From: Sulfurimonas sp. | Lineage (GTDB): Bacteria; Campylobacterota; Campylobacteria; Campylobacterales; Sulfurimonadaceae | Direction: 5' to 3' | NCBI GenBank assembly: GCA_027013295.1 | Contig: JALUXP010000113.1 | Location: forward strand, 1 to 35,471 | DNA: 35,471 nucleotides | Shown here: positions 2,957 to 31,429 of the stretch, one piece after another | Position numbering within the stretch: position 1 is the first letter of the stretch | How the letters are laid out: the number at the start of each line of letters is the position of its first letter | Program-made: the position numbers and the translations under genes | The notes under the pieces: generated by a model | Seen by the model: the letters and a program-made list of their open reading frames with translations, nothing else | Databases searched by the model: none | What the model was told of the DNA's origin: nothing

Positions 2957-2976
2957 AAGCATTAAGTGTGCCAACT
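2957..2976 (-). promoter_or_regulatory. Sigma-54 (RpoN) type promoter for flgE
   Basis: On the minus strand the site reads TTGGCACACTTAATGCTT: GG (complement of 2971-2972), exactly 10 bases, then GC (complement of 2959-2960). This is the diagnostic -24/-12 layout, and TTGGCAC fits the consensus -24 box. A transcription start near 2947 would leave about 45 bases before the flgE ATG. It starts right at the flgE2 stop codon. RpoN control of flgE is established in Helicobacter and Campylobacter; here it is inferred from the motif and spacing. Confidence 0.85.
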
Positions 2977-4238
2977 TATTTACTCATCTGAAGAGCTTTT
3001 TGCATCATCTCATTTGCAGTAGATACAGATTTGGAGTTCGCATTATAGGAGCGTTGGAATATAATCATATCCGTTAAAGCTGCACTCAGACCAACATTTG
3101 ATCCTTCCAATCTATGGTTTAATACCCTAGCACCATTATGGTTCTCACCATTTTTATCTTGAAAAAACATTGGGCTTCCACTGTTGGAACTTGCTTTAAA
3201 AGTTGAACCTGATGCTCTCTCTAGTCCTTGCTGATTTCTGAAATGAAAAACTGCAATTTTTCCTACACTTGTTTGCTGTCCATTTGTAAAAGTTGCGATG
3301 ACCTCTGCCTTTGCATTGATACTATAGCTCTTTAACTCTCCACCTAGCTTCCCATCTGATTTACTTGAAGGACTGATAGATACACCTGTAGCAGAAGTAA
3401 CCCCTCCAGATAACTTATTCCCAAGGTCTAACTGGACAATCTGACCATTGTTATCGATGCTTTTTAAAGTGCTCGATATAAGTGATCCACTAGCATCAAA
3501 ATTCGCTTTTGCCTTTTGTGTATCATAAATAGTCGCACCATCTAAGCTTCTTGCTGTTGCCACTATATCCCACTGTGTTCCAGGTGATACTTGTGGCTTT
3601 GATTGTGTAAATGAAAGTTTGATTTGATTTTTATTGTTTTTTGGGTCAATAACAGTTGCACTCATTGTTCTTGTGACATCATCTCGCCCTAAGTTCCCAA
3701 AAAATTGACTTTTTGTAGTTGGCACAACAAGATACTTTAATTCACTCGGAAAGGAGAGCTTAGTTTGTGTGGCAACACCACCTAACTTAACTGAATCTAA
3801 AACTTTACTTACAACACCATCTTTTATATTGTTACCCATTGTTCCAAGTACATAATGACCATTAGTTGTTACAAGAGAGCCCTCTTTGTCAAAGTTAAAA
3901 TTACCCGCTCTTGTATAGAGAGGTTCACTCTCACCCTGTATACCAAACCAGCCATTGCCAGCTATGGCTAGATCTGTAACTTTATCTGAGAGTGCAATAC
4001 TACCAGCTTTAGTGTCCATAGTTGAAGCACCTAAAGTTGAACCCAATCCAACCGTATTGTCTGTTGTTGATGTTTGTGCAGGAGTATGTAGCTCTTGTTC
4101 AAGAAGAGAATTAAACTCTGAACTATATCCTTTAAACCCCACTGTATTTATATTTGCAATATTGTTTGCTACTACATCAATGGCAGTTTGATTGGACTTG
4201 AGACCTGAGATGCCTGTATAAAACGCTTGAGTCATCAT
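2976..4238 (-). CDS. flgE2: FlgE2-like flagellar hook-family protein
   Basis: 420 residues, a second FlgE/FlgF/FlgG-type protein. The N-terminus (MMTQAFYTGISGLKSNQTAI, then VANNIANINTVGFKGYSSEF) and C-terminus (EGSNVGLSAALTDMIIFQRS, then YNANSKSVSTANEMMQKALQ) carry the family's terminal coiled-coil motifs. The middle is shorter than in the neighbouring FlgE. Campylobacterota commonly carry such a second hook-like protein beside flgD. AGGAG lies seven bases before the first of two ATGs. It starts 12 bases after the flgD stop, so the two are co-transcribed. Its exact structural role (hook variant or distal rod) is not settled by sequence. Confidence 0.88.
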   Translation of the reverse strand: MMTQAFYTGISGLKSNQTAIDVVANNIANINTVGFKGYSSEFNSLLEQELHTPAQTSTTDNTVGLGSTLGASTMDTKAGSIALSDKVTDLAIAGNGWFGIQGESEPLYTRAGNFNFDKEGSLVTTNGHYVLGTMGNNIKDGVVSKVLDSVKLGGVATQTKLSFPSELKYLVVPTTKSQFFGNLGRDDVTRTMSATVIDPKNNKNQIKLSFTQSKPQVSPGTQWDIVATARSLDGATIYDTQKAKANFDASGSLISSTLKSIDNNGQIVQLDLGNKLSGGVTSATGVSISPSSKSDGKLGGELKSYSINAKAEVIATFTNGQQTSVGKIAVFHFRNQQGLERASGSTFKASSNSGSPMFFQDKNGENHNGARVLNHRLEGSNVGLSAALTDMIIFQRSYNANSKSVSTANEMMQKALQMSK

Positions 4239-4249
4239 AAAAATGCTCC

Positions 4250-4936
4250 TTAATAAACTTCTTTTACTTTTCCTATTGGAACATAATTAGAACCAAGTTT
4301 TAAAAGTGAAGTTCCTTTGTCAAAACGAACTGCTTCTATGGGGTAAGTTCCAAGTTTTGTTGTTTTAGCAACTCCATTTGTATCTGTATAGTTTGATGTG
4401 ATGTGATATATCCCACTCCCTGCGGTGGTACGATCAGAGCCTACACCATTCCAAGAAAATTGATGCACACCAGCATCTTTTTTCCCAAGAGTTTTATCAA
4501 TAGCTATATTTAAAGTTGCGACAACTTTGTTATTGCTATCAAGAATATTGACTGTACCATTTTTAATGTCGTTTGGATAATATATTTCAAATTTTGATGC
4601 ACTTCCCTTAGTATGAGAAATAGTATCACTGCCTGTATCTGCCGTCTTTCCAATCGCAGCAATTGTCGAAAACTCTTTAGAACTTGAGATTGACTTAGTC
4701 AAACCTTTCAAAGCCTTATTGGTGTTTGAAGATGCTTCTAAGCCAGCTAGTTGTGAGGTTTGACTTAAAATCTTTTCAGAGTCCATCGGTTCGGTTGGGT
4801 CTTGATGCTGAAGTTCTACAAGTAAAAGTTTCATAAAGTCATCTTTTCCCAAAGCAGTTTTATTTTTAACTTGGTGGGTAGCAGTTGGTGTTGCACCATT
4901 TGTAGCGATATTGTTTCCATAAGCATTGATAGCCAT
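4250..4936 (-). CDS. flgD: Flagellar hook assembly scaffold FlgD
   Basis: 228 residues. FlgD forms the cap under which hook subunits assemble. The N-terminal region has the family signature LGKDDFMKLLLVELQHQDPT followed by EPMDSEKILSQTSQLAGLEA. The C-terminal half carries the Ig/tudor-like pattern (FSWNGVGSDRTTAGSGIYHI). The leading 25 residues are low-complexity Asn/Thr/Ala, typical of an export signal. It sits 20 bases downstream of fliK and 11 bases upstream of flgE2, within one operon. Confidence 0.94.
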   Translation of the reverse strand: MAINAYGNNIATNGATPTATHQVKNKTALGKDDFMKLLLVELQHQDPTEPMDSEKILSQTSQLAGLEASSNTNKALKGLTKSISSSKEFSTIAAIGKTADTGSDTISHTKGSASKFEIYYPNDIKNGTVNILDSNNKVVATLNIAIDKTLGKKDAGVHQFSWNGVGSDRTTAGSGIYHITSNYTDTNGVAKTTKLGTYPIEAVRFDKGTSLLKLGSNYVPIGKVKEVY

Positions 4937-4956
4937 GATATTCTCCTTAAATTATA

Positions 4957-6408
4957 TTATGCATAGTTGGGAACTACTATCTCTAGGGAGTTCAAAATCT
5001 CTTCATTTTCATCTTGAGCTTCAAAATAGTTATATTCCTTACCTGCTTGTCGTTGGTTCTGGTGATTTTGTTGTGAATTTTGACTTTGTGCATCACTATT
5101 TGAACCACCATTAAAATTAAATGTAGCATTATTTATTCCATTGTTACCTAACTGTGTTTTGAGATCATTGATATTCATTGCCAAAGCGTTGATAGCTATA
5201 TTGTTTGAGCCTATATTTACATGAAGATTTTTACCACGAGAGACTATGGTGAGATCAACTTCTCCAAGGTTTTGAGGATTTAACTGAACTTTCAACCTCG
5301 TAAATGGAGACTTATAATCATCAATAGCTGTTTTTATATCTTGTGAGAGATTTTGTACCATCTGTTTAGCTTCGTTGAGCTTTACAGAAAGAGTATCGGG
5401 CTTTTGCATCTTTAAGCCATCAAGATTAAAACTCTTATCATCTGTATTTTGTAAGAGTGATTCAAATGACTTTGAGATATCTTTACTCGCCTGAGGAGCG
5501 ATTACTCTTGAACTTGCCACTGAAAAGTCTGCTGTTAAACCTGTAGTTAAATTCTGCTTTGGCTTTTCCCCACGCAACAACAACTTCAGCGTTTCATCTG
5601 CTTTTTGTTTTATTGTTTTTGAACCTTGATGGTTATCTTTTGCATTGAGATGTTGCTTAATATTGACAATGTTTTGTGTCAAAACTTTTTGAGGTATTTG
5701 GACTACATCTCTAAAAAGAGGCACAGAAGCTTTGACTTCATCTTTTAGATCTTTGTTTTTATGGTTACTCTCTACTTGAAGAGTTTTTTGTTGTAGTTTT
5801 GATGGCTCTTGAAACTCTAGTTTACTTAGTGCGGGAGCTGACTTTTGTTCTTGCTTCTTCGGAATCTCTTTTAGCTCTTTTTGAGTTGCAAATTTTCCAC
5901 CTACTTTCAGATGGGTTTGTTTACTTAGACGGGCTTTGTCTGTAAGAGTAAGTTTTGTTGGTTGTACATCTTCTAAAGTGATTTTTTTTATATCTATGCC
6001 AAGTTTATTTGCAACTGCTACTAAACCTTTTAAAGTTTTTGGGAGTTTTTTTGCTTCACTCAGTTTAAAAGCATCACTTTGAATTATTTTAGTTTTGAGG
6101 TAGCTTTTTCCATCAAGGATTAACCGTTTTAAATCTTTAGGTGTTATATCTTTAACGAGTATTGGGTTTAGTTCTACGCTGAGTGTTTGAGGAAGGTGTG
6201 TCTCTTTTTTAAGCTCTTTAAGTGCAAGTGTCTTTTTGAGAGGGATTGACTTTAGAGCTTCATCTTTTGGTTTAAGTTTTACACCATTTAAAAGTTCTAA
6301 GAAAGAGAGTTTGTGCTTGCCCTTTTTATCTACTTCTGAACCTGAAAGAGATAAAAGACTGGATTTTTTACTCTGAGAAGTTTCAGCCTTTGCATCTAAT
6401 GAGATCAT
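4957..6408 (-). CDS. fliK: Flagellar hook-length control protein FliK
   Basis: 483 residues. FliK measures hook length and switches the export apparatus to filament substrates. The long N-terminal and middle region is Lys/Leu/Gln-rich and poorly conserved, as expected for the ruler part. The C-terminal Flg_hook domain is clear at about residues 375-435: LKVQLNPQNLGEVDLTIVSR, then NLHVNIGSNN and the INDLKTQLGNNGI helix. After it comes a Gln/Asn/Ser-rich tail. The call rests on the C-terminal domain and the position immediately before flgD. A sigma-54-like site lies just upstream (6455-6468). Confidence 0.88.
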   Translation of the reverse strand: MISLDAKAETSQSKKSSLLSLSGSEVDKKGKHKLSFLELLNGVKLKPKDEALKSIPLKKTLALKELKKETHLPQTLSVELNPILVKDITPKDLKRLILDGKSYLKTKIIQSDAFKLSEAKKLPKTLKGLVAVANKLGIDIKKITLEDVQPTKLTLTDKARLSKQTHLKVGGKFATQKELKEIPKKQEQKSAPALSKLEFQEPSKLQQKTLQVESNHKNKDLKDEVKASVPLFRDVVQIPQKVLTQNIVNIKQHLNAKDNHQGSKTIKQKADETLKLLLRGEKPKQNLTTGLTADFSVASSRVIAPQASKDISKSFESLLQNTDDKSFNLDGLKMQKPDTLSVKLNEAKQMVQNLSQDIKTAIDDYKSPFTRLKVQLNPQNLGEVDLTIVSRGKNLHVNIGSNNIAINALAMNINDLKTQLGNNGINNATFNFNGGSNSDAQSQNSQQNHQNQRQAGKEYNYFEAQDENEEILNSLEIVVPNYA

Positions 6409-7290: not shown

Positions 7291-8409
7291 ATGTTTTTTA
7301 ACAACAACCATCATTCAGAGAATGAAATTAAAAAGTATCAATTAGAGATTGAAACTTTAAAGCAACAAGTAGAGGATTTAACTTCTAAAAATAATGAGTT
7401 AGAAAAGCAAGCAGGGTATGCTGATAGCAATCAAATTATGAATGATTTAATCAAGGCATTAACACATGGTTTAACAGATGGATGCGATAGAGACTTAAAG
7501 CTTCTTCAAGGCGACCTAGGCAGTAATCTTGGTGCACTTGAAGATATAGATACTAAAAATCAAGAAAATAATGAGCATACAAACTCATGTTCTGTTGGTA
7601 TTGAAACTCTTTCTGATACTATGGGTTCATTACTAGAGCATATTTCAAATACATACGAAGAGGTCAACACATTAAATAATAATGTTGAAAGTATATCTGA
7701 TGTTATTAACTTGATCAAAGATATCTCTGACCAAACAAATCTCCTTGCTTTAAATGCTGCTATAGAAGCAGCAAGAGCAGGGGAACATGGTAGAGGATTT
7801 GCAGTTGTTGCAGATGAAGTAAGAAAGTTAGCCGAGAGAACTCAAAAAGCAACAAGTGAAGTAGAGATTTCAGTTTCATCTTTAAAACAAAACACCAGTG
7901 AGATTTATGAGCATTCTAAATCTATGGAAGAGTTATCACAAAGCTCAAATGAGCAGATGGATGAGTTCCAATCAAAGATGGAAATTTTAAGAGAAAACTC
8001 ACAAATGATTTCTCAAGAGAACAAAGATATAACTTATGCTGTTTTTATGGTGTTAGTGAAACTTGATCATCTTCTTTTTAAAGCAAATGGTTACAAAACT
8101 GTCTTTAATGGTAAGATAACTGGAACTTTTGCAGCTGATGATGAATGCCGACTTGGTAAGTGGTATCTTGAGGGGATTGGTAAAGATAAATTTGGTCAAT
8201 GTGCAAGTTATGGCAAAATGGCAGCACCACATAAAGAGGTTCATGACAATATTAAAAAAGCAGTTGAGTGTGTTGAAGCTGGAACATGTACTGAGCACTC
8301 TCAAAATGTGATGACATATTTTGATTCGGCAGAAAAAGCATCCATGAAAGTTATAGAATACCTAAATAATATGTTAGAAGAGGAAAAATCTTTGAGACAT
8401 AGCAAATAA
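7291..8409 (+). CDS. Soluble methyl-accepting chemotaxis protein with C-terminal CZB zinc-binding domain (TlpD-like)
   Basis: 372 residues with no membrane segment or signal peptide, so a cytoplasmic receptor. Residues about 8-45 form a coiled coil. The MCP signalling tip is about 140-182 ([20 protein letters not shown], then [20 protein letters not shown]). Residues about 255-340 form a chemoreceptor zinc-binding (CZB) domain with the ligands visible: His260 (VKLDHLLFK), Cys286 (CRLGKWY), His314 and His318 (PHKEVH). Architecture and size resemble Helicobacter TlpD, linked to reactive oxygen, hypochlorite and energy responses. It is transcribed away from the hook operon and is followed 10 bases later by an mnmC-type gene. 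Confidence 0.92.
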
Positions 8410-8419
8410 GATAAACTCT

Positions 8420-9193
8420 TTGGTAAAAAAATTTGATGATGCACTTCACTCCCTGACACTCAGTGAAGATGGCTCATATACAGCCTATTCAAAAGAGTAT
8501 GATGAGCATTATCACTCTACAAAAGATGGGGCTTTGCATGAATCATTACTCAAACATGTGATCCCCGCTTTAGAGTTAAAAAAAGAGTTCGTGGAGATAA
8601 ACATACTCGATATCTGTTTTGGCTTAGGTTTCAATACCCTTGCAACACTCTACTATGCACACAAAAAAAAGATACAAACTAAGATAAATATATACTCTCC
8701 AGAGCTAGATGCACAGCTAGTAAACTCACTTGTACATTTTACTTATCCAAAAGAGTTTAACCACTTGAGAGTTGTTATGGAGAGTTTAGTTGAAAAAGGG
8801 AGCTATGAAGATTCATCTATATCTATAGAGCTTTATCTTGGCGATGCACGAGTTTATCTAAAAAAGTTAATGGAGAAGCAGATAAAGTTTGACATAGTCT
8901 ATCAAGATGCTTTTTCCCCCTCAACAAATCCTATACTGTGGACTAAAGAGTATTTTAAAGATATAGCCTCACTCGTAAAAGAGGATGGTGTTGTAACAAC
9001 TTATTCTATCGCTTTTAAAACCCGTCTCGCTCTTTATGAAAATGGTTTTCATCTCTATATCAATAGTGCAGAGGAGATGAGAGATGCTACAGTTGCCTCA
9101 AAAACTCAATTGGTAGATTTTGAACTGGTTGATATGCCTCATAAGATCAAATGCAACAAGGGCATAGTTGCACTGAGTGATGCTACTATCTAG
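8420..9193 (+). CDS. mnmD: MnmC/MnmD-type tRNA (mnm5s2U34) methyltransferase
   Basis: 257 residues beginning at a TTG codon (TTGGTAAAA); no ATG is suitably placed. The family is the SAM-dependent methyltransferase domain (DUF752) that finishes mnm5U34 in tRNA wobble positions. Visible motifs: the SAM loop [19 protein letters not shown], the substrate-site acid run [20 protein letters not shown], and the [20 protein letters not shown] segment. It lacks the FAD oxidase domain of bimodular MnmC, so it is a stand-alone MnmD type. MnmG, which makes the cmnm5 precursor, is encoded elsewhere in the window. Its stop codon overlaps the 3' end of the convergent rhodanese-MCP gene by 8 bases. Confidence 0.85.
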
Positions 9194-11402
9194 TTTTAAA
9201 CTTATCAAGTTGCCCTTTAAGGGTTTGAGATATTTCATAAACTTCATTAGCACTATTTGAGATATTGAGAGCATTGTCTTTATTTTGCTTAACGATGTTG
9301 TCTATCACTTCAATATTATTGATGATAAGCTCTGCATTTTTTTGAACCTCTTCGGTGCTTGTTAGCGATGAGTTTGCTAAACCAGCTGTGCTTGTTATGA
9401 TACTTTTTGTCTCTTGAAGTTTCTTTTTCATAAGTTCAGAGTTATCACTAAGCATTTTTGTTTTTTGCACATTGTCATTCATATTTGTACTCGCATCTAT
9501 GATAGATTGGACAATGACGCTTACATTGCTATGGATCTCACCGATAGCCTTTTGTGTACTTTCAGCCAGTTTTCTTACTTCATCTGCAACTACCGCAAAG
9601 CCTCTTCCATGTTCACCTGCACGAGCAGCTTCTATGGCAGCATTGAGTGCTAGTAGATTGGTTTTGTCAGCAATATCTTCTATGATACTCAGGACATCTG
9701 TAATCTTTTGTGCATCATCAGTAAGTTGGTTGAGTTTTGCTGAGATATCTTCTTCCCTGTAAGCGTTTTCTTGGATTTGATTTACAATTTGTATCACATT
9801 TTTTTGAAGTTCTTCAAGATTGTTTTGAGCCTGTGTGGTTTCCTCTTGTGTCTTTTGTACATTTGATGAAGTGACAGAGAGTGTTCCTTTCATCTCATCA
9901 CTCATGCTTTTTGTTGTGTTTACTAACTCAAATTCTTGTGAAGCTCCATTGCTGATCGCTTCTGCACTATTTTTCATCTCTAAAGTATTTTGTGCATTGT
10001 TTTGAGAAGAATCCTTAGCATCATGAAGAACCTCTCCCACTTTTTCTATAAGATGGGCAAATGCTTTGTAGATCTCACCTAGCTCATCCCTTTTGTAGTC
10101 AACAAATTTTCGTGAAAGATCAAGCGTATCAAGCATTGAGACCATATTGTTCCTGATGCCAAGGATGGAGGACTTCATAAAGATATATAAAATAGTGTTG
10201 AGTGTTGCAGAGACAAAGATAAAAAAGACTATAAGGATGAGTACATCATAAAATGTTTTTTTGAGGTTTAGTGTACTTTGGTTATAGATCTCTCTTATTT
10301 TTATATTGACTTTTTGCTCAATAATATTGAACTGTTTATTGATGATAGCACTTGAGAGTGCCCACTCGTTTGATGCGAGATTTACTAACACCTTTTTATC
10401 CTCTTTGAGATAAGCCTGTTGGAGTGCATCTAAGAGATGCTCTGAATCTTTATACTCTTTTATGATGATATCAAAAGAGTTTTTTATTTGTGCATCTTTG
10501 TAAAATTCACTTTGCATCACATTGGAGATGATATTTTTCATCTTTTTTCTTGTATCTATGAGGGCGATCCTTGCCCCCTCAAATGCTACCAAACCTGTAA
10601 GAGAGTAGGAAAGATTATTTTGAATAGAATTAAAGTTATTGATTGCGTGGAGGAGTTCATTTTGTGGTTTAAAGTTATCTTCATAGATATGATTTATAGC
10701 TATCTGTCCATCTTTTGAGGAGTTAAGAGAAAAATACCCAATAATACCCATACTTAAAACGATGATAAAGATATTGCTAAGGAGTTTTGTGGAGATAAGA
10801 TAAGATTTTTTCATAATAATATGTTTAAACGCAAAAAACAAGATGATAGCCATCACAATGCCAATGATAACACCTACTGTAACATGAAAATTAAAATCAT
10901 TTTTTATGACTTTTGTATCCATTTTTCCTACAATGTTAACTCCATCAACCTCATAACCTGCTTTGGCATACTTACCTATACCCTCTCTTAACCAATATAC
11001 ATTAGTGTAACCTTCCTTGGCGGTTGTTACTGCAGCTTTGTAAGATTTCCAACATTTAATACCGTTGCAGTAAAAAATAAGCTCTTTTGATTTATCTGGA
11101 GATATGCGTGCATCATGGTAGATATCTTTAGAATTATCAAAATCAACTATTTTATTTGCATTGCCACCTTTTTCATCGTAAAAAGCAGAGATAGCACCTT
11201 TGATATGTTCAATAGAATACTCAGGAACTTTTCTAGTATCTACAAATACAGCACCATTTTTATATTTTTCATTGGCAGTTTTAGAGTCAACAACTCTAAC
11301 ATGAAACTTTGAGGCTATCTCAGAAGATGGGGTATCTGGTTTTGCGTAAAGGTTCGTAAAAAGGAGGGTTGTTGCAAAAAGTAAAGTTATTACAGATTTC
11401 AT
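9186..11402 (-). CDS. Membrane chemoreceptor with an N-terminal periplasmic rhodanese domain
   Basis: 738 residues. Residues 1-20 are a signal peptide. Residues about 33-155 form a rhodanese domain ([20 protein letters not shown]) with two cysteines in the active loop, C112-NGIK-C117-W. Hydrophobic spans follow at about 173-193 and 207-225, joined by a short Lys-rich loop that should be cytoplasmic. Residues about 228-385 look like a periplasmic four-helix sensor, followed by a third span (387-408), a HAMP-like linker, and the MCP hairpin ([20 protein letters not shown], then [16 protein letters not shown]). Predicted topology puts rhodanese and helical sensor both in the periplasm. A role in sensing sulfur species is an inference from domain content. 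Upstream is ribE; SD GGA lies before the ATG. Confidence 0.9.
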
Positions 11403-11484: not shown

Positions 11485-12102
11485 TTAGTATCTTGCACTT
11501 ATACTATCAACATCATCCCAAGTCAAATGAGTAGATTTTGTTTGATGATTGATGATATGGGCTACATACCTTGCAAACATATCAGTTTCTACATTGACTT
11601 TTGAGCCTTTTTTGTAGCTTTTGAAAAGTGTCTCTTTCATCGTATGTGGGATGATAGTAAGTCTAAGAGAGTCCTCTTCTACATCATTGACAGTCAGACT
11701 GATGCCATCTATGGTGATAGAACCTTTTGGGATGACATAAGCGATAAACTTTTTTGGAAGTTTGACAAACACATCAAAAGAGTTTCCATTGTTTTTAATC
11801 TCTTTTATCTCTCCGATGCAGTCAACATGCCCTTGGACAATATGTCCCTCAAATCTATCGCCCATCATCATAGCAGGTTCTATGTGCACCTCACCTTTGT
11901 AGTTCTCTATAGCTAAGAGTTTTTGACTCTCAGGTGAGAGCTCAACACTAAAACCATCACTCGTTACTTTGACAACTGTTAAACATGCTCCATTGATCGC
12001 TATGGAGTCACCAAGTTTTGCTTGATGTTTTGCACGGATAGTGAGTGTTGAACCTACAAAACTTTTAACAGTAGCTATCTCTCTAATTAATCCCGTAAAC
12101 AA
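11485..12102 (-). CDS. ribE: Riboflavin synthase, alpha chain
   Basis: 205 residues, the normal length. The enzyme dismutates two 6,7-dimethyl-8-ribityllumazine molecules to riboflavin. It starts with the hallmark MFTGLI and has two tandem lumazine-binding barrels: residues about 1-95 (KLGDSIAINGACLTVVKV, MMGDRFEGHIVQGHVDCIG) and 96-190 (YVIPKGSITIDGISLTVNDV, IPHTMKETLF). No other riboflavin genes are adjacent. A pair of REP-like hairpins lies upstream. Confidence 0.96.
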   Translation of the reverse strand: MFTGLIREIATVKSFVGSTLTIRAKHQAKLGDSIAINGACLTVVKVTSDGFSVELSPESQKLLAIENYKGEVHIEPAMMMGDRFEGHIVQGHVDCIGEIKEIKNNGNSFDVFVKLPKKFIAYVIPKGSITIDGISLTVNDVEEDSLRLTIIPHTMKETLFKSYKKGSKVNVETDMFARYVAHIINHQTKSTHLTWDDVDSISARY

Positions 12103-23047: not shown

Positions 23048-23410
23048 ATGGGAAAAATACTGATAGTGGATGATTCTAGTCTTATTCGTTCTGTTGCTGC
23101 AGGTGCTGCAACAGAAGCTGGACATGAACCGATAGTCGCAGAGAATGGGCAAGAGGGTTTGGATATTTTAACAAGAGAGAAGATTGACCTAATATTTTCT
23201 GATGTAAATATGCCTGTTATGGGTGGACTGGAGATGGTAGAGAACATTAAGCAAAATGATGCTTATAAATATATACCTATCATAATGCTCACAACAGAGT
23301 CAAATCCTGAGCTTAAAGCAAAAGGACAAGCACTTGGCGTAAAAGCTTGGATGCTAAAGCCATTTAATAAAAAGAAGTTTTTTATGGTTGTTAAAAAGCT
23401 TCTAGCCTAA
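23048..23410 (+). CDS. cheY: CheY-like single-domain response regulator
   Basis: 120 residues, one receiver domain. Acidic pair Asp8-Asp9 (VDDSS), phospho-acceptor Asp52 (FSDVNMP), Thr82/Thr83 and Lys104 (LKPF) are all present, so it should be phosphorylated by the CheA two genes downstream. Position 101 is Trp where CheY proteins usually have Tyr or Phe. GGAGAAG precedes the ATG. It is the first gene of the chemosensory operon. Whether it binds the flagellar switch or serves as a phosphate sink cannot be told from sequence. Confidence 0.92.
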   Translation: MGKILIVDDSSLIRSVAAGAATEAGHEPIVAENGQEGLDILTREKIDLIFSDVNMPVMGGLEMVENIKQNDAYKYIPIIMLTTESNPELKAKGQALGVKAWMLKPFNKKKFFMVVKKLLA

Positions 23411-23420
23411 TGAGACTCAG

Positions 23421-23687
23421 ATGAAAATAGATAAAGATGAGCTTACCATTTATGAAGTAGAGGCTTTTTACGAAGAGTTGTTAGCTGAATTTGACAAAGG
23501 TGATATTGCTGTAGATATTAGCAGTCTCAACAAGATAGACATGAGTGTTATCCAGCTTTTGTTAAGTGCAAAAAAAAGTTGCCAAGAATCTTCTAAAGCT
23601 TTTCAAATCATAGGTGCAAACAGCGAAGTAACAAAAATATTTCAAGAGTCTGGATGCCAAACACTACTAGGAGTTACGGATGAATGA
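23421..23687 (+). CDS. STAS-domain protein
   Basis: 88 residues, one anti-sigma-antagonist-like STAS fold: IAVDISSLNKIDMSVIQLLL followed by SAKKSCQESSKAFQIIGANS. The Ser in DMSVIQ occupies the position phosphorylated in SpoIIAA-like proteins. It overlaps cheA by 8 bases, so it is translationally coupled. Similar small STAS proteins occur in non-canonical chemosensory operons, where their job is unclear. No anti-sigma kinase is nearby. Confidence 0.82.
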   Translation: MKIDKDELTIYEVEAFYEELLAEFDKGDIAVDISSLNKIDMSVIQLLLSAKKSCQESSKAFQIIGANSEVTKIFQESGCQTLLGVTDE

Positions 23688-25752
23688 AGAACTTGAACTC
23701 TTTGTAGAAGATGTTGACGAACAGTTGACATTTATGGAAAATGCTCTTGTAGCTATGCAAGAGAATGGTGTAGATGATGAGAGTCTAGGTGCTCTCTTTC
23801 GTGCGATGCACACCATCAAAGGTACTGCTGGTATGTTCGGCTTTGATGATGTTGTGGGGTTTGCTCATGTTGCTGAAAATCTTTTAAGTGATGTAAGAGA
23901 TGGCAAAGTTGAGTTAAATGAGGAGATGATAGAGACTTTTTTGCAGTCTAAAGATCACACACAAACTCTTGTTGATTTAGCAGTGGATGGTGAGGTACTT
24001 GATGCGAAAACACAAGCTAAAAATGACCATCTTTTAGCCATACTTAAGTCGATGCTCCCAGATGCTAAAAAAGAACCTCTAAAGATAGATGCAGAGACTT
24101 TAGAAGATGAAGAGGGCGGTGAAAAACTTTGGCATATCTCTTTGAGACTCAAGCCACATTTCTTTGCGAGTGGTATGGACATCATAAACATATTGAACTT
24201 TTTTAACATACTTGGAGAGGTAAAAAAACTTTTATGTATAGATACAAATATTCCTACACTTAAAGATATGAACCCTACTGAGGCTTATATAGGGTATGAG
24301 ATACTTTTTTTGAGTGATGCTAGTTATGCTGAGATAGAAGAGGTTTTTGAGTTTGTTATGGATGATGTTGTGCTTGAGATATTTGAGGCAACAGATATGG
24401 ATATGTTGCAAGCTTTATGTGATAATGAAGAGGGACTCAGAGAAGAACTTGTTTTTGCTGGCTTTGATAATGCTTCAAGAGTAAGAAGCACAGATGCAAG
24501 AGAAGAAGAGGTTCAAAAAACAGAAGTTAAAGAGATCTCAAAAGAACCATCTTCAAAAAAAGAGATAAAAAAAGAGACAAAGAAAGAGACAAAGAAAAGT
24601 TTCTCTTTGCGTGTTGACTCGAGCAAAATAGACTCTCTCATAAACCAAATCTCAGAGATGGTAATAGCCAATGCTAAAGTAACTCAAAGAGCTGATGCTC
24701 TTGATGATAATGAGCTAAGTGAATCAGCAACTATACTTAGTGATATGTTAGAAGAGATACGAACAGGCATTATGAACATCCGTATGGTACAAGTTGGCGA
24801 TAGTTTCAACAAGTTTAAGCGAATCGTGAATGATGTAGCTAAAAAAGTAGACAAAGAGATAGATTTTGAGATAGTTGGTGGCGAGACTGAACTTGATAAA
24901 ATGGTGGTAGAGAAGATCTCTGACCCACTGATGCACATGCTTAGGAACTCTATAGATCATGGAGTAGAAACACCACAAGAGAGAAAAGCAGTAGGAAAAA
25001 GTCCCAAAGGACATGTAAGACTTAAAACTTACCCAGATGCAGGTACTATTGTTATAGAGATAAGTGATGATGGGCGAGGTCTTCCAAGAGATAAGATTTT
25101 AGCAAAAGCGATCGCAAATGGCTTGGTTGAAGAGAACAATAATCTCAGCGACAAAGAGATTTACAATCTTATCTTTGCAGCAGGTCTCTCAACAGCTGAA
25201 AAGGTCTCAGATATCTCTGGTCGTGGTGTTGGGATGGATGTTGTCAAAAGAAACATAGAGGCTTTGCGTGGAACAGTAGAGATAGACTCTAAATCTGGTG
25301 AGGGAAGTCTCTTTACTATACGACTTCCACTTACTCTTGCTATCATTGACGGTTTTCTCATACAGTCAGGAAATACTAAATATATCATCCCTTTAGAGAT
25401 GATTCAAGAGTGCATAGAACTTGATGCACATTACAAAAAAGAGATGGATGGAAATGAGTTTATCAACCTTCGTGACTCGATGCTTCCTCTCTTAGATGTT
25501 CGTAGCTATTTTAACGAGCAAGAGACACAGAGTGAACGAGAAAATATCGTAGTGGTTCGTTTTGGAGAGTACAAGGTGGGAATGATGGTAGATGAACTCT
25601 TTGGAGAGTTTCAAACAGTTATAAAACCTCTTGGAGAGGTGTTTAGTAATGTTGTAGGTGTTAGTGGAGGAACTATTTTAGGAAGTGGCGAGATAGCTCT
25701 TATATTTGATATTCCAAAACTTATGGAACACAAGATCAGAGAATCTCTGTAG
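23680..25752 (+). CDS. cheA: Chemotaxis histidine kinase CheA
   Basis: 690 residues. HPt domain about 1-105 with His44 (RAMHTIKGTAGMFGF); a P2-like region about 148-235 starting KLWHISLRLKPHFFASGMDI; Lys/Glu-rich linker 275-306; dimerisation region about 307-375; ATPase domain with N box LRNSIDHGVE (421-430), G1 DDGRGLP (463-469) and G2 GRGVGMD (514-520); CheW-like domain about 550-690. All catalytic features are intact. Codons from about 620 to the stop are copied 1296 bp downstream in a near-identical direct repeat, but this upstream copy is the complete gene. Confidence 0.97.
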   Translation: MNEELELFVEDVDEQLTFMENALVAMQENGVDDESLGALFRAMHTIKGTAGMFGFDDVVGFAHVAENLLSDVRDGKVELNEEMIETFLQSKDHTQTLVDLAVDGEVLDAKTQAKNDHLLAILKSMLPDAKKEPLKIDAETLEDEEGGEKLWHISLRLKPHFFASGMDIINILNFFNILGEVKKLLCIDTNIPTLKDMNPTEAYIGYEILFLSDASYAEIEEVFEFVMDDVVLEIFEATDMDMLQALCDNEEGLREELVFAGFDNASRVRSTDAREEEVQKTEVKEISKEPSSKKEIKKETKKETKKSFSLRVDSSKIDSLINQISEMVIANAKVTQRADALDDNELSESATILSDMLEEIRTGIMNIRMVQVGDSFNKFKRIVNDVAKKVDKEIDFEIVGGETELDKMVVEKISDPLMHMLRNSIDHGVETPQERKAVGKSPKGHVRLKTYPDAGTIVIEISDDGRGLPRDKILAKAIANGLVEENNNLSDKEIYNLIFAAGLSTAEKVSDISGRGVGMDVVKRNIEALRGTVEIDSKSGEGSLFTIRLPLTLAIIDGFLIQSGNTKYIIPLEMIQECIELDAHYKKEMDGNEFINLRDSMLPLLDVRSYFNEQETQSERENIVVVRFGEYKVGMMVDELFGEFQTVIKPLGEVFSNVVGVSGGTILGSGEIALIFDIPKLMEHKIRESL

Positions 25753-25839
25753 ATGAAGTATGATATTGCCTATTTTCAAAGAGGAGGAAGAGATGTACAA
25801 GGTAGATATAGAAAGATTACCATCTTTCATGATAGGTGA
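25538..25839 (+). repeat. Direct repeat copy 1 (302 bp): cheA 3' end and following bases
   Basis: Identical to 26834-27135 except at 25819 (A/G) and 25828 (C/T), with no indels (constant offset 1296). It covers the last 71 codons of cheA, the stop, an RBS-like GAGGAGGAAGAG, and the first 15 or so codons of the small Rpn-like ORF. Sequence flanking the two copies is unrelated on both sides. Confidence 0.97.
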
Positions 25840-26005
25840 AGAAAGAGGTTTAGAGCAAGGTTTAGAGCAAGGTGTTTATAAACAGAATATAAAAGTTGCA
25901 AAAGCACTGTTATCAAAAAATAGTGACATTACTTTTATAGTGGATATTACTGGTTTAAGTGTTGTCGAGGTTCAAAAGCTTCAGAGTTGTGAAGAGAAAA
26001 ACTAG
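25793..26005 (+). pseudogene. C-terminal remnant of an Rpn/PD-(D/E)XK family gene
   Basis: 70 codons from the ATG that follows GAGGAGGAAGAG (an upstream ATG at 25760 is also in frame). The product, including GEERGLEQGLEQGVY and the end DITFIVDITGLSVVEVQKLQ, matches the Gly-Leu-Glu-Gln linker and terminal helical motif of Rpn-family proteins such as the one at 21979, but the whole nuclease domain is missing. The stop abuts the ATG of the MNT gene. It could still be translated as a small protein, but it most likely represents a truncated gene. Confidence 0.75.
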
Positions 26006-26353
26006 ATGTTAGAGATGAGTATAGAAACATTGAAAAAAGAGATAGTCAGTAGACTAAAACCTTTAGAGTTGCAACAAATAACACTATTTGGTTCATTTGC
26101 TTACGGGAAGCCAAATGAAGATAGTGACATAGATTTATATGTTGTTACTTCAGATGACTTTATACCAAAAAGTTATGCTCAGAGTATGTCTATCAGATTA
26201 AAAGTTGCTAATGCTTTAGAGGAGTTACAAGCGATTATTCCTATAGATATAGTGACACATACAAAAAAAATGTATGAAAAATTTGTTGAACAAAATAGTA
26301 GTTTTTCAAAAGAAATTTTACAAAAGGGGGAGTTGTTATGGGGACATCACTAG
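26006..26353 (+). CDS. MNT-type minimal nucleotidyltransferase (probable antitoxin partner of HEPN)
   Basis: 115 residues. It shows the polymerase-beta nucleotidyltransferase motif: Gly29-Ser30 (LFGSFAYGK), then Asp41-x-Asp43 (EDSDIDLYVV), with a third acid at Asp81 (IPIDIVTHTK), so catalysis looks possible. Small enzymes of this family next to HEPN proteins form toxin-antitoxin or defence pairs. The gene overlaps the HEPN gene by 16 bases, indicating a tightly coupled unit. The start ATG abuts the previous stop; a second ATG is at codon 4. Confidence 0.88.
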   Translation: MLEMSIETLKKEIVSRLKPLELQQITLFGSFAYGKPNEDSDIDLYVVTSDDFIPKSYAQSMSIRLKVANALEELQAIIPIDIVTHTKKMYEKFVEQNSSFSKEILQKGELLWGHH

Positions 26354-26727
26354 CTTTAGATTGGTTGCAATCTGCAAATGATGACCTTGAAGTTATTAGA
26401 AAAATAATTAATGATGAAAGATTAACTCATATCGTTGCTTTTCATGCTCAGCAGTCGATAGAAAAATCTTTTAAAGCAGTTATGGAGTATAAAAATATAA
26501 GTGTACCAAAAGTACATAAACTACAATTTCTGATAGCTAAAATTGATTTGAAAATAGAAATGGAAGAGAGTATATTAAAAGTCTTAGATGAACTCTATAT
26601 AGACTCAAGATACCCTGGTAATTTAGGTTTATTGCCCTATGGTAAACCAACACTGAGTGATGCTGATTTATTTTTTAAACAAGCATTAAATATTTATTTA
26701 AAAATAGAAAACAAAATAAAAGGATAA
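26338..26727 (+). CDS. HEPN-domain protein (PF05168-like), partner of MNT
   Basis: 129 residues, an all-helical HEPN protein: WLQSANDDLEVIRKIINDER, then IVAFHAQQSIEKSFKAVMEY, then VPKVHKLQFLIAKID and LYIDSRYPG. HxAQQxxEKxxKA and the Y..xRYP ending are signatures of the HEPN family paired with nucleotidyltransferases. The RX4-6H RNase motif of toxic HepT-type proteins is not evident, so toxicity is not assured. A nucleotide-binding or RNA-targeting role with MNT is the usual suggestion. GGGGGAG precedes the ATG inside the MNT gene. Confidence 0.87.
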   Translation: MGTSLALDWLQSANDDLEVIRKIINDERLTHIVAFHAQQSIEKSFKAVMEYKNISVPKVHKLQFLIAKIDLKIEMEESILKVLDELYIDSRYPGNLGLLPYGKPTLSDADLFFKQALNIYLKIENKIKG

Positions 26728-26730
26728 AAA

Positions 26731-27048
26731 ATGGCAGAAAAAAACTTAGAGAAAGATTGTTAAAAACTTAAAAAAGAGAATAAGCAGTTAAAAGTAAACT
26801 TTAAACAGTTAGTAGATGAGATAGGACTTCTTAGAGAAAATATCGTAGTGGTTCGTTTTGGAGAGTACAAGGTGGGAATGATGGTAGATGAACTCTTTGG
26901 AGAGTTTCAAACAGTTATAAAACCTCTTGGAGAGGTGTTTAGTAATGTTGTAGGTGTTAGTGGAGGAACTATTTTAGGAAGTGGCGAGATAGCTCTTATA
27001 TTTGATATTCCAAAACTTATGGAACACAAGATCAGAGAATCTCTGTAG
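26731..27048 (+). pseudogene. Broken coiled-coil ORF fused in frame to a duplicated CheA C-terminus
   Basis: An ATG four bases after the HEPN stop opens a frame (MAEKNLEKDC) that hits TAA at 26761-26763 and then continues in the same frame as KLKKENKQLKVNFKQLVDEI and GLLRE. At 26834 it passes without a shift into ENIVVVRFGEYKVGMMVDEL, the CheA C-terminus, ending at the CheA stop. So one nonsense codon splits an otherwise continuous hybrid of a Lys/Glu-rich coiled coil and the last 70 CheA residues. Internal GTG (26848) could start a 66-residue piece, but no ribosome site supports it. The coiled-coil part is not recognised. Confidence 0.75.
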
Positions 27049-27135
27049 ATGAAGTATGATATTGCCTATTTTCAAAGAGGAGGAAGAGATGTACAAGGTA
27101 GATATAGAAAGATTGCCATCTTTTATGATAGGTGA
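26834..27135 (+). repeat. Direct repeat copy 2 (302 bp)
   Basis: The second copy of 25538-25839, with differences only at 27115 and 27124. After the copied cheA stop (27046-27048) it repeats the RBS-like GAGGAGGAAGAG and MYKVDIERLPSFMIGE, then diverges to GEVKGTQK and a TGA that overlaps the start of the PAS gene. Confidence 0.97.
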
Positions 27136-27153
27136 GGTGAAAGGAACTCAAAA

Positions 27154-27993
27154 ATGAATAGTTTAGAGAAAGAAGTTAATGTTAAAGAGGGTGATGTTTT
27201 AGTGAGTATGACCGATGTAAAGGGTAACATAACCTATGCAAATGATATATTTTGTCAAACGGCTGGATATACAAGAGAGGAGATACTAGGAAAACCTCAC
27301 AATATTGTAAGACATCCAGATATGCCAAAGGTTGTTTTTAAAGTTTTGTGGGATGCTGTTCTTGATGGAAAGTCAGTAAGTGCCTTTGTAAAGAACAAAG
27401 TAAATGGTGGTGGATTTTACTGGGTAAGAGCTTTTGTAGCTCCTGTTATGGTAAATGGAACTATATCGCATATTATCTCCTATAGACGACGCATTGAAGA
27501 TTCTCAAAAAGAGGTTCTTAACTCTTTGTATGGGACTTTAGTGGATTACGAGAGGAGACACAGTGTTAAAGAGTCTTATCAGTTCTTTATGGATTTTTTA
27601 GATAAAAGGAAGTTAAACTACCGAGAGTTTCTAAATCGTATTAGTGAAAATAAACAGGTTACAAATGTAGATGCTCTCAATATTGACTTAACGCATGCTA
27701 AAGTTGATCACCTTATCTTTAGTATAAATATTGAGGAGAGAGTAAAGCGTGGAGAAAAAAACTTTGAAGTAACAAAACCGTGTTGTTGCAGAGTTGGAAA
27801 GTGGATAGAGTCTCTCTCTGGGACCGCTATGGCTCACTCTAGGGAGTGGAAAGATTTTGTAAGTTCTCATAGTGTTTTTCATAACAATATGCAACTATAT
27901 GCAAATGGACAAAGTTCTATATTGGCTCAAGCAAAAGAGGATGAACTCAAAATATATGAGAGTTTACAAAAAGTTATAGATACTACAAAATAA
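27154..27993 (+). CDS. Aer-type PAS protein with C-terminal CZB domain
   Basis: 279 residues, soluble. PAS domain about 13-112 closely follows E. coli Aer: ITYANDIFCQTAGYTREEIL, then PHNIVRHPDMPKVVFKVLWD and GFYWVRAFVAPV; the VRHPDMP stretch is part of the Aer flavin site, so FAD binding and redox/energy sensing are likely. Residues about 178-255 form a CZB zinc domain with His186 (VDHLIF), Cys212 (CRVGKW), His239 and His243 (HSVFH). There is no MCP hairpin, so it probably signals through the adjacent poly-HAMP receptor, much as CetB works with CetA in Campylobacter. GTGAAAGGAAC lies before the ATG. Confidence 0.9.
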   Translation: MNSLEKEVNVKEGDVLVSMTDVKGNITYANDIFCQTAGYTREEILGKPHNIVRHPDMPKVVFKVLWDAVLDGKSVSAFVKNKVNGGGFYWVRAFVAPVMVNGTISHIISYRRRIEDSQKEVLNSLYGTLVDYERRHSVKESYQFFMDFLDKRKLNYREFLNRISENKQVTNVDALNIDLTHAKVDHLIFSINIEERVKRGEKNFEVTKPCCCRVGKWIESLSGTAMAHSREWKDFVSSHSVFHNNMQLYANGQSSILAQAKEDELKIYESLQKVIDTTK

Positions 27994-28008
27994 ACAAAGG
28001 AAAAAAAA

Positions 28009-29958
28009 ATGGCAAAGATAAAAGAAAAAAAAAGCAGTAGTGAAAAAGATGTTGCAGTTATGGTAGATGCTCTACAAGCATTGGTAAATGGTGATTTTAA
28101 CTGTATGTTAAAGACAAAGAACTCTAAACTATCTGATGTTTACAACAAGCTTTGTACGCAACTTAGTAATCTTCATGATGATTCTATGATGATGCACAAG
28201 GCATCTCAAGAGGGACAACTTGATGTTCGTATAGATACTACAAAATACAATGGTACCTTTTCAGGCATTACAGATGGCATAAACTCCACTATGGACTTAA
28301 CTGTTGGAAACTTAAGAATAGTTGGTTCGGCGATAAGTGACTTAGGACAGGGAGAATTTAGTGCCCAAGTAAGTGAGCATATGAGCGGTGATTTTGCTGT
28401 TTTAAAAGATGGAGTCAATAACTTAAGTGCAAACCTATCTAACCTTATTGAAGATGCAAATATTTTATCAGCCGCTGTTGGAAATGGGGAGACTAAAATA
28501 AGAATCCAAACAGGAAAATATGAAAATGATTTTCTAACATTAACAAATAGTCTCAATACAACGATTGAAACATTTGATAAAGCTTTTGCAGATGCCATTT
28601 TTGGTTTTAACGCTTTGCAAAATGGAAAGTTTGATGCAAGAATAGAGACAGAATACCAAGGGGACTTTGATGTAGTTAAACAAGCAGCCAACAATGCAGC
28701 GGCACAACTTGAAAAACTACTTAAAAATTATAATGATGGATATGCTGAGATAGAGAAAGGGAATATATCAGCTAGAGTTGAAACAGAGGGCTTTACAAAT
28801 GACTACTTAAAAATAATCGGTGTTGTTAATGATACTTTATCAGTTGTTCAAAATGCTTTTGCAGATACAATATTTGGTTTGAATGCACTTCAAAACGGAG
28901 AGCTTGATAAAAGAATTACAACAGAATATCAAGGTGATTTTGATGTAGTAAAACAAGCTGTGAACAATACAGCATCAACACTCCAAGATATTATTAAGGA
29001 AACAGGGACTGTTCTCTCGTGTATGGCAGATGGTGATATGACAGTTACAATAAAAAGTAATTTTGTTGGAGATACAGAGGCTATTAAAACTGCAACAAAT
29101 ACAATGGCTGAAAAACTTCAAACTATTGTTGGTCGTATTAACAGTGGAGTAACAGAGATAGCATCAGCTTCTACACAAGTAAGTGCATCTTCGCAGTCTC
29201 TTTCTCAAGGTGCAACTGAACAAGCAAGTTCACTAGAAGAGACAAGTGCAGCTCTTGAAGAGATGAGTGGAAGTGTCGCAGAGTCTGCAAAAAATGCACA
29301 AAAAACAAATGACTTAGCAGAAGAGGCATCTGTTATGGCTATAGATGGTGGAGAAGCCGTTACGAAAACTGTAGATGCTATGGTTCTCATCAGTGAAAAA
29401 ATCTCTATCATCGAAGATATAGTTTACCAAACAAACCTCTTAGCACTCAATGCCGCCATCGAAGCAGCAAGAGCAGGGGAGCATGGTAAAGGTTTTGCAG
29501 TAGTTGCTGCAGAGGTGCGAAAACTAGCAAAACGCTCACAAGTAGCAGCACAAGAGATAAGTACCATCACAACTGATAGTGTGAAGATAAGTGAAAAAGC
29601 AGGTAGTCTCATAAGTAGTGTTGTACCAAAGATTCAAGAAACAGCAGAACTTATCAAAGATATAGCAAATGCAGCAAAAGAGCAAGATATAGGTCTAGGT
29701 CAGATAAACACTGCCATGACACAACTAGACCAAGTGACACAAACAAACGCAGCATCTTCTCAAGAGATGGCAAGTGCTAGTGAAGAGCTTAACGGACAAG
29801 CAAACTCACTCAACCAAATGATGAGTTTCTTTAAAGTAGCAGAGGGAGATATGTTTAGCACTCCAGCCCCTCTAGCAGCACCGCAAGCACGCCAGACTGC
29901 ACAAACACCAGAGACCTCTAACGGTGGTTTAGATCTTCGCCAATTCGATAGATACTAA
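28009..29958 (+). CDS. Soluble poly-HAMP methyl-accepting chemotaxis protein
   Basis: 649 residues with no signal peptide or membrane span. Residues about 20-374 are a chain of about eight HAMP-like units of some 45 residues (near 20-56, 60-102, 103-147, 148-193, 194-238, 239-284, 285-329, 330-374). Units 5 and 7 are nearly the same ([20 protein letters not shown] against [20 protein letters not shown]). The MCP hairpin follows with [20 protein letters not shown] then [21 protein letters not shown] Pro/Ala-rich tail ends LDLRQFDRY, which could be a CheR/CheB tether, though it does not match the classic NWETF. It has no input domain of its own, so the PAS-CZB protein upstream is the likely sensor. 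Confidence 0.93.
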
Positions 29959-29968
29959 AGAGTTAAAG

Positions 29969-30466
29969 GTGAGCCGTAAAAATAATGAACTAGAGAGTGA
30001 AGTCGCAAATAATCAAAACCAGTATCTTCTTTTTTTGGTTGGCGGTGTTCTCTATGGCGTAGAAGCTTTAAAAGCACAAGAGATAGTGGAATATAGTAGC
30101 ATTACAAAAGTACCTACTATGAAGAGTTTTGTAAAAGGTGTGACAAATATACGAGGAAATATCGTTCCTGTTATTGATCTGCTCGATAGATTTGGGCTTG
30201 GTCAAACTAGCATAGCCGATAAAACATCTATAGTAGTTGTCAATCATGAAAAAGATGAAGGTATTATGTCAATAGGCATCATAATTGATGAAGTGTATGA
30301 AGTAGATAGCATAGATGTTGAAGACCTTACAAAAGCACCTGAGTTTGGCTCAAAGATTGATGCAAAGTATATCCTTCATATGGGAAAATACAACAAAGAG
30401 TATATCGCTATTTTAAATACTAATACTATTTTAAATATTGGTGAACTCTCACAACTAGCACTATAA
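29969..30466 (+). CDS. cheW: Chemotaxis adaptor CheW
   Basis: 165 residues from a GTG start (no nearby ATG fits; AAAGAG lies upstream). A single CheW domain spans about 18-160: YLLFLVGGVLYGVEALKAQE, TNIRGNIVPVIDLLDRFGL and IGIIIDEVYEVDSIDVEDL are typical. It couples the soluble receptor to CheA. It follows the receptor gene by 10 bases and precedes the CheV-like gene by 10 bases. Confidence 0.93.
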   Translation: MSRKNNELESEVANNQNQYLLFLVGGVLYGVEALKAQEIVEYSSITKVPTMKSFVKGVTNIRGNIVPVIDLLDRFGLGQTSIADKTSIVVVNHEKDEGIMSIGIIIDEVYEVDSIDVEDLTKAPEFGSKIDAKYILHMGKYNKEYIAILNTNTILNIGELSQLAL

Positions 30467-30476
30467 AAGAGTAAAT

Positions 30477-31427
30477 ATGCAAGAGTATGATGAAGAAACA
30501 GAAAATATAGACAATCTTATGGATGATGATGACGATGAGTTAGACCTTGTTGCACTTGTCAGTGCAAATGCAAATGATACAAGCCAGTACCTCGTTTTTG
30601 AAGGGAGTGATGGGCAGTATTATGCAAAAAATGTCTCTAAGATAGAAGAACTTTTAGTCTATAAAGATATTGACATCGCCAAAACTAACAATGAAGGACT
30701 TATCGAAGGAACTGCCGATATTCGTGGAAATATGACAACGATTATCAACTTTGATAAGTGGTTTGGCAATGAGGTTCTTGATGAAAGTAAGTATGAGCTT
30801 ATTATCTTAGCTCATTATGGTGGACATAGACTCGGCATCGTGGTAAAGCGTGTAGAGTACATAGTAAATATTCCTCCAGAGACTATGACAGACAACTCTC
30901 AAAATGATGAAAAAACATCTTTTATAACTCGGGTAAACATAGGGCAAAAGAGCCAGATGTGTCTCATCTTTGACAGTGATAAGATGCTTTTAGATGTCTT
31001 TGACACCATAGACACGAAGGCGATGGAAGATACGAAGCAGATTGAAAAGGTTAAAAATGACAGGCTCATCCTTTTTGCAGATGATAGTAGGTTTATCCGT
31101 AAAATGGCAGAGTCCCTTTTTAATAAAATGGGCTTAAAGTACAGAATGTATGAAAATGGACAGCTTTTACTTGAGGATTTGAAATATGTCTCGCCTGAGG
31201 AGATATCCCTTTTTATCACTGACTTAGAGATGCCTGTTCTTGGTGGAAGAGATGTTATTGATAACATAAGAAAAGAGAAAAAGTATGATGGTATAAATAT
31301 CATAGTGCATACAAATATGTCAAATGACAATATGGCAGAATCCCTTCTCGATGCTGGTGCACAAGATATTATTGGAAAGGTCAATATGCTCGCTCTTAGT
31401 GAAGCTATGCAAAAGTATATGGTGTAG
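30477..31427 (+). CDS. cheV: CheV-like adaptor (CheW domain fused to receiver)
   Basis: 316 residues. A very acidic N-terminus (residues 2-23) precedes a CheW-like domain (about 30-178, with ADIRGNMTTIINFDKWFG). A receiver domain follows at about 194-316: acidic pair Asp202-Asp203 (ADDSRF), phospho-acceptor Asp249 (FITDLEMP) and a Lys in the DIIGKVNM segment (Lys301). Such proteins adjust receptor-kinase coupling by phosphorylation. A 2-base gap separates it from cheR. The acidic leader is unusual for CheV. Confidence 0.9.
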   Translation: MQEYDEETENIDNLMDDDDDELDLVALVSANANDTSQYLVFEGSDGQYYAKNVSKIEELLVYKDIDIAKTNNEGLIEGTADIRGNMTTIINFDKWFGNEVLDESKYELIILAHYGGHRLGIVVKRVEYIVNIPPETMTDNSQNDEKTSFITRVNIGQKSQMCLIFDSDKMLLDVFDTIDTKAMEDTKQIEKVKNDRLILFADDSRFIRKMAESLFNKMGLKYRMYENGQLLLEDLKYVSPEEISLFITDLEMPVLGGRDVIDNIRKEKKYDGINIIVHTNMSNDNMAESLLDAGAQDIIGKVNMLALSEAMQKYMV

Positions 31428-31429
31428 AG

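Follow-up and report, generated by a model that had tools for sequence, protein, structure and literature searches.

Transmembrane chemoreceptors of the Tar/Tsr/PcaY type are built on a four-helix layout, and the receptor described here shows this same layout with a rhodanese domain and one more helix placed in front of it. A bare receptor of 541 aa (L082), the closest bare relative compared, which comes from another family of the same order, also consists of a transmembrane (TM) helix, a four-helix domain, a second TM helix, a HAMP-like linker and an MCP domain, and the fusion differs from it by 196 extra residues at its front, which hold the signal peptide, the periplasmic rhodanese and one TM helix more.

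Concerning the rhodanese part, the closest described proteins are found among membrane-anchored and secreted enzymes. Profile and fold searches matched the membrane-anchored YgaP of Escherichia coli, and the fold search also matched the periplasmic polysulfide-sulfur transferase Sud of Wolinella succinogenes; both have the rhodanese fold but lack a chemoreceptor domain; moreover, the alignment shows that the YgaP loop, unlike that of the fused rhodanese, is missing the second cysteine. The free-standing periplasmic rhodaneses of Campylobacteria likewise present a signal peptide, a rhodanese domain and a C-x-G-x-x-C loop, but they are not anchored to a receptor and share about 30-44% identity with the fused domain. 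Among NCBIfam models, those closest to the rhodanese part are the TsoB rhodanese/DsbD fusion-like selenoprotein (NF045694, E 2e-16), whose partner domain is DsbD instead of MCP, and the PQQ-associated CXXCW protein (TIGR03865, PQQ_CXXCW, E 8e-10), both far below their cut-offs (59.2 bits versus 805 and 38.8 bits versus 128, respectively).

Judged by titles and abstracts, no description of a rhodanese-chemoreceptor fusion was found in the open literature (subscription papers and domain-architecture databases lie outside this scope), and the only genome paper that looked relevant deals with a different sulfur enzyme and not with a receptor. The word "rhodanese" is also absent from a survey of the chemosensory systems of Campylobacterota (PMC9321776). 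The fusion is real, and it is apparently an undescribed receptor design in a transmembrane chemoreceptor of an otherwise known kind.

Domain layout and topology

The gene is located in a stretch of 35,471 nucleotides from Sulfurimonas sp., called the window below. The gene and its domains, the topology (by hydropathy), the joint, the conservation of both cysteines and both periplasmic modules, and the distribution were all computed. The features are the following:

8420..9193, forward strand: MnmC2-like tRNA methyltransferase, convergent neighbour overlapping the receptor gene by 8 bp (Pfam and NCBIfam matches)
9186..11402, reverse strand: rhodanese-chemoreceptor fusion gene, 738 aa, ATG start (Pfam Rhodanese and MCPsignal; nine intact orthologues in the genus)
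9189..9992, reverse strand: cytoplasmic signalling domain, residues 471-738 (PF00015)
10023..10184, reverse strand: HAMP-like linker, residues ~407-460 (from sequence; DELGE motif in all orthologues)
10188..10244, reverse strand: TM3, residues 387-405 (Kyte-Doolittle 2.65)
10248..10724, reverse strand: second periplasmic module, predicted four-helix bundle, residues 227-385 (AF2 helices, Foldseek matches)
10728..10784, reverse strand: TM2, residues 207-225, equivalent to TM1 of an ordinary receptor (hydropathy)
10812..10814, reverse strand: fusion joint, residue 197, aligned with Met1 of the ordinary 541-aa four-helix receptor
10827..10883, reverse strand: TM1, residues 174-192 (Kyte-Doolittle 2.9; in all orthologues)
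10938..11315, reverse strand: periplasmic rhodanese domain, residues 30-155 (Pfam PF00581, AF2 model, fold matches)
11049..11069, reverse strand: active-site loop C112-NGIK-C117-W118, with the second cysteine at loop position 6
11343..11402, reverse strand: signal peptide, residues 1-20 (hydrophobic core; predicted cleavage after A20)
11485..12102, reverse strand: ribE, riboflavin synthase, upstream neighbour (NCBIfam match above cut-off)

The signal peptide was called from hydropathy and orthologue conservation, since A20-K21-P22 is invariant in the ten orthologues and a small or aliphatic residue is found at position -3. With the leader cleaved, the rhodanese is predicted to be periplasmic. 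From there, hydropathy predicts that TM1 runs inward to a short, positively charged cytoplasmic loop, TM2 runs outward to the second periplasmic module, and TM3 runs inward again to the cytoplasmic linker and signalling domain; TM2 and TM3 thus bracket a periplasmic ligand domain with predicted helices between them. The initial annotation had proposed a signal peptide and a two-cysteine rhodanese joined through a membrane hairpin to a receptor, and this architecture, its topology and the cysteine pair were confirmed and found to be conserved.

The rhodanese was recognized by Pfam (PF00581, residues 46-147, E 3.3e-15, 56.8 bits versus a cut-off of 22.2). The AlphaFold2 (AF2) model of residues 1-410 showed poor confidence over this part; folded alone, the domain gave a pLDDT of 78.6 and a pTM of 0.79. 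The lists of structural matches to this model were dominated by rhodaneses, both in Foldseek (E down to 6e-5) and in VIA-align (Z 9-12, up to 12.3), with GlpE at Z 11.7 over 102 residues and an rmsd of 2.5. Solved structures among the matches include YgaP, CoA-disulfide/persulfide reductases (CoADR-RHD), a persulfide dioxygenase-rhodanese and the Wolinella polysulfide-sulfur transferase (Sud). The absence of a rhodanese fold in the prediction, which had been named as grounds for dropping the whole proposal, is therefore not what was found.

Regarding the second module, the helices of the 410-residue model (residues ~240-370) have a pLDDT mostly between 66 and 88, and Foldseek matched them to the ligand domains of Tar, Tsr, Vc1313 and PcaY with a probability of ~1.00 in many rows and a TM-score by target of 0.6-0.77, yet with E values of only 0.03-0.3. 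The model indicates a four-helix bundle resembling Tar/Tsr, as does the homology to bare receptors over their full length. The description of this part as a standard four-helix receptor holds by fold, although at E <= 1e-3 neither the Pfam 4HB_MCP model was reported for the module nor the HAMP model for the linker, which has the right length and the DELGE motif. The signalling domain is well defined (MCPsignal PF00015, residues 552-703, E 3.5e-32, 112 bits versus a cut-off of 34.6), and its hairpin tip, residues 599-614, is invariant in the orthologues. The tip sits 139 residues before the C-terminus, a distance that fits a 40H-type receptor, the class to which Sulfurimonas receptors mainly belong (PMC9321776).

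Several other genes of the window are related to motility. A chemotaxis cluster encoding CheY-like, CheA, PAS-CZB, HAMP-MCP, CheV-like, CheR and CheB proteins occupies positions 23048-35023, flagellar hook genes lie within 2976-6408, and a CZB receptor with no obvious periplasmic domain is encoded at 7291-8409. Inside the chemotaxis cluster, between the CheA and PAS-CZB genes, there is a nucleotidyltransferase/HEPN gene pair of the MNT-HEPN toxin-antitoxin type (26006-26727), and a PD-(D/E)XK family transposase (PF12784, 21979-22884) is located just upstream of the cluster. A promoter scan gave no more sites than were obtained in shuffled sequences.

Conservation, distribution and origin of the fusion

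Across 135 Sulfurimonas genomes, nine further intact, full-length copies free of stops were found, with identities to the window protein of 93, 76 and then 60-63%. These copies refute the reading of a frame error or a chimeric assembly, in which two genes would have been joined through a sequencing or assembly error. The joint is the same in ten independently assembled genomes, including one that consists of a single contig, none of the ten shows the frame error or the stop near residue 160 that had been raised as a possibility, and dN/dS is low on both sides of the joint, so that the probability left to an artefact is negligible.

The whole-protein dN/dS was 0.061 against the nearest relative and 0.06-0.11 in other pairs, and values of 0.03-0.13 were obtained for the rhodanese, four-helix and signalling domains where they could be computed. 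These values point to strong purifying selection on the fusion protein. Mean pairwise identity is 0.68 for the rhodanese, 0.67 for the four-helix module and 0.75 for the signalling domain, and the leader (0.39) and the TM1/linker region (0.44) have drifted.

A scan of GTDB genome contigs, made only with patterns of this fusion family, returned nine loci, all from metagenome-assembled genomes (MAGs) named Sulfurimonas or, once, Helicobacteraceae. The rhodanese-receptor fusion was not found outside Sulfurimonas among the Campylobacteria genomes searched, viral contigs contained no relatives, and the plasmid search gave only weak rhodanese matches. The suggestion that three membrane spans with two periplasmic modules are an uncommon layout is borne out, as this layout was found only in Sulfurimonas. 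Other families of the order gave rhodanese matches of ~690 aa that at first resembled fusions to signalling domains, but those that were read are rhodanese-multihaem cytochrome proteins, not receptors. In three of them (L102 2007-4001, L103 393-2450 and L106 1728-3932) a periplasmic rhodanese is fused to multihaem cytochrome c and to a cytochrome b membrane part; L103 keeps the active-site cysteine (CLNRMC), and L102 and L106 have lost it (YGLNRF).

In most carriers the fusion gene adjoins ribE, with the convergent mnmC2 on the other side, and its neighbours are housekeeping genes (ribE, mnmC2, luxS and mnmG). The MnmC2-like flanking gene is also present in relatives that do not have the fusion receptor. 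Three near-complete genomes that lack it (G133, G115 and G116) have ribE directly next to mnmC2, which indicates a clean insertion or loss of a single gene. The gap between mnmC2 and ribE varies between relatives (loci L142, L143, L144, L145, L146, L147 and L148), being empty or containing a RecQ-like helicase plus a receptor, receptor/regulator clusters or a response regulator, and receptor genes of Sulfurimonas seem to favour this site. In one carrier (G112) the fusion gene is found at a different locus (L069 2854-5067), suggesting that it was relocated or transferred; the mnmC2 neighbourhood of this genome contains another receptor. On the MnmC2 tree, about 4-7 gains or losses are needed to explain the pattern, so the receptor has been patchily kept, with transfer being possible.

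A broken copy was also detected in the NORP87 Sulfurimonas MAG (G029; L107 9151-10770, also L072 8052-9671). It occupies the same ribE/mnmC2 site, contains several stops and has lost C117, and it is either a decaying gene or an assembly problem.

Beyond the genus, the searches of the family and the class gave partial relatives of three main kinds: bare four-helix receptors of ~545 aa, whose alignment begins only at TM2; single, free-standing rhodaneses of ~170 aa with the loop CYGE[ST]CA; and tandem rhodaneses of ~305-345 aa with the loop CMGxNCWKSYK. In BLASTP, residues 197-736 of the query align with residues 1-540 of the bare receptor L082 (30% identity, E 7e-64). As residue 197 falls on Met1 of that receptor, the protein is an entire receptor that has a module of a secreted rhodanese and one TM helix in front of it, and the extra helix returns the chain to the cytoplasmic side, which preserves the receptor topology. 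An internal start at M197 giving a second product was discarded, since M197 is not conserved among the orthologues. In the rhodanese tree the fused domains fall into a clade of their own (90/98 support, recovered in 84% of bootstrap trees), and this grouping fits a single fusion event.

The rhodanese could also be no more than a sulfurtransferase attached to the receptor array, or an enzyme retained at the membrane, with the four-helix domain alone acting as the sensor. The existence of ordinary receptors of this kind without a rhodanese, the good conservation of the four-helix domain and the resemblance of its fold to receptors that bind amino acids and aromatic acids are in agreement with this. 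Nevertheless, the fusion apparently has one origin and is kept in every intact copy found, and the N-terminal query matched no bare version of this receptor in the genus, so we regard a merely tethered enzyme as quite improbable.

The cysteine pair and the periplasmic loop

The active-site cysteine of the rhodanese opens a six-residue loop, and the D-x-R motif (D55, R57) is kept. C112, C117, D55, R57 and W118 are invariant in ten of ten orthologues, where the loop follows the pattern C112-N-G-x-x-C117-W. The protein has no cysteines besides C112 and C117, and none other is found in the mature periplasmic region of any orthologue; any sulfur or redox chemistry must therefore use these two. This excludes a relay to a cysteine of the four-helix domain. 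Typical rhodaneses carry Arg, Thr or Ser at loop position 6, and another rhodanese of the same genome has the loop C-R-R-G-G-R. The C-x4-C spacing is common to the aligned free-standing rhodanese relatives; hence, it is probably older than the fusion and would not be an adaptation specific to sensing.

Two invariant cysteines at a spacing suited to a disulfide, with no other periplasmic cysteine, are also what a generic thiol-redox sensor would show. Its C112-C117 disulfide would follow the periplasmic redox state, with oxygen, nitrite or NO stress and reductant supply as inputs, and would guide the cell along redox gradients, without sulfane sulfur as its specific ligand. The fact that the best-scoring NCBIfam neighbour is TsoB, although far below its cut-off, hints at thiol-disulfide exchange in this subfamily of rhodaneses, and the distribution of the receptor does not follow that of sox genes. 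However, the conserved full rhodanese fold, the D-x-R motif and the active-site cysteine exceed the needs of a disulfide switch, and this possibility is considered unlikely, albeit one to be taken seriously.

Another conserved element is the segment of residues 72-95 (11118-11189, reverse strand), SAxYDEKGGxxNKIxxFDxSxD, which hardly varies among the fused rhodaneses and is different in the free-standing ones. It is predicted at low confidence in the model and could be a contact to the four-helix domain. Its first part, SAxYDEKGGxxNKI (residues 72-85), almost invariant, specific to the fused form with respect to the free-standing relatives and interface-like, would also be consistent with the rhodanese being a docking module for a periplasmic protein partner, for instance a binding protein, sulfur-carrying or not, the chemistry of the rhodanese itself being secondary. 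Some chemoreceptors do receive their signals via periplasmic proteins. Yet docking alone does not need the invariant catalytic cysteine nor the second one, which makes this explanation improbable.

Sulfane sulfur as the putative signal

Sensing of sulfane sulfur through C112 and C117 by a transmembrane receptor of flagellar chemotaxis is the best explanation for these features, although we hold it tentatively, at a little under an even chance. Sensing of thiosulfate, polysulfide or persulfide, as the initial annotation proposed, is plausible because the D-x-R motif, the active-site cysteine and the second cysteine are kept and the organism is a Sulfurimonas. The nearest solved rhodanese relatives include persulfide-handling enzymes, which supports sulfane sulfur as the signal, and the intact MCP domain, the conserved periplasmic modules, the joint at the start of a bare receptor and the che cluster in the window were also counted in its favour. 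Counted against it were the absence of adjoining sulfur genes, none being found next to the receptor when the neighbourhoods of the carriers were compared, the detection of SoxB in fewer than half of the intact carriers, and the C-x4-C loop shared with the free-standing rhodaneses. The neighbouring genes themselves, a housekeeping set only, were discarded as a functional clue.

For a mechanism based on sulfane sulfur, we infer the persulfide chemistry, the disulfide resolution, the direction of the signal and the ligand. Periplasmic sulfane sulfur (polysulfide, persulfide or a protein-bound sulfur carrier and, less likely, free thiosulfate) would form a persulfide on C112, and C117, which closes the six-residue loop, would resolve it into a C112-C117 disulfide with release of sulfide. 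The change in the loop or in the docking of the rhodanese could then be sensed by the conserved four-helix domain next to it, and the signal would pass through TM3 and HAMP to CheA. Sensing would in that case be covalent, the C112 persulfide giving way to the disulfide, and taxis would report the flux of polysulfide or persulfide instead of reversible ligand binding; this more specific proposal is possible but rather doubtful.

Gene content was also compared with the presence of the receptor. Thiosulfate oxidation in the periplasm requires SoxB, which was detected in 4 of the 10 intact carriers versus 10 of 15 non-carriers, two of the carriers without it being only 74% and 87% complete, and it was not found in the genome with the broken copy. 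A gene-content link to thiosulfate oxidation was discarded as unsupported, and thiosulfate is, because of this pattern, the least supported part of the proposal. NrfD/PsrC-type proteins, used to look for a link to polysulfide reductase, were present in all 26 genomes tested and did not discriminate. No co-occurrence of the receptor with a particular sulfur pathway was found in the genomes tested on the basis of SoxB and NrfD/PsrC.

Sulfur-oxidising Campylobacterota inhabit steep gradients of sulfide, polysulfide and oxidants, and no description of a dedicated sulfane-sulfur receptor was found in the open literature searched. An enzyme domain with intact active-site residues as the outer module of a chemoreceptor is a defined candidate, consisting of one gene and two cysteines. 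Moreover, it illustrates how a new sensor can evolve in a simple way, a secreted enzyme and one helix being welded onto a working receptor with its topology undisturbed. The most likely role of the fusion receptor of Sulfurimonas is the sensing of reactive sulfur.
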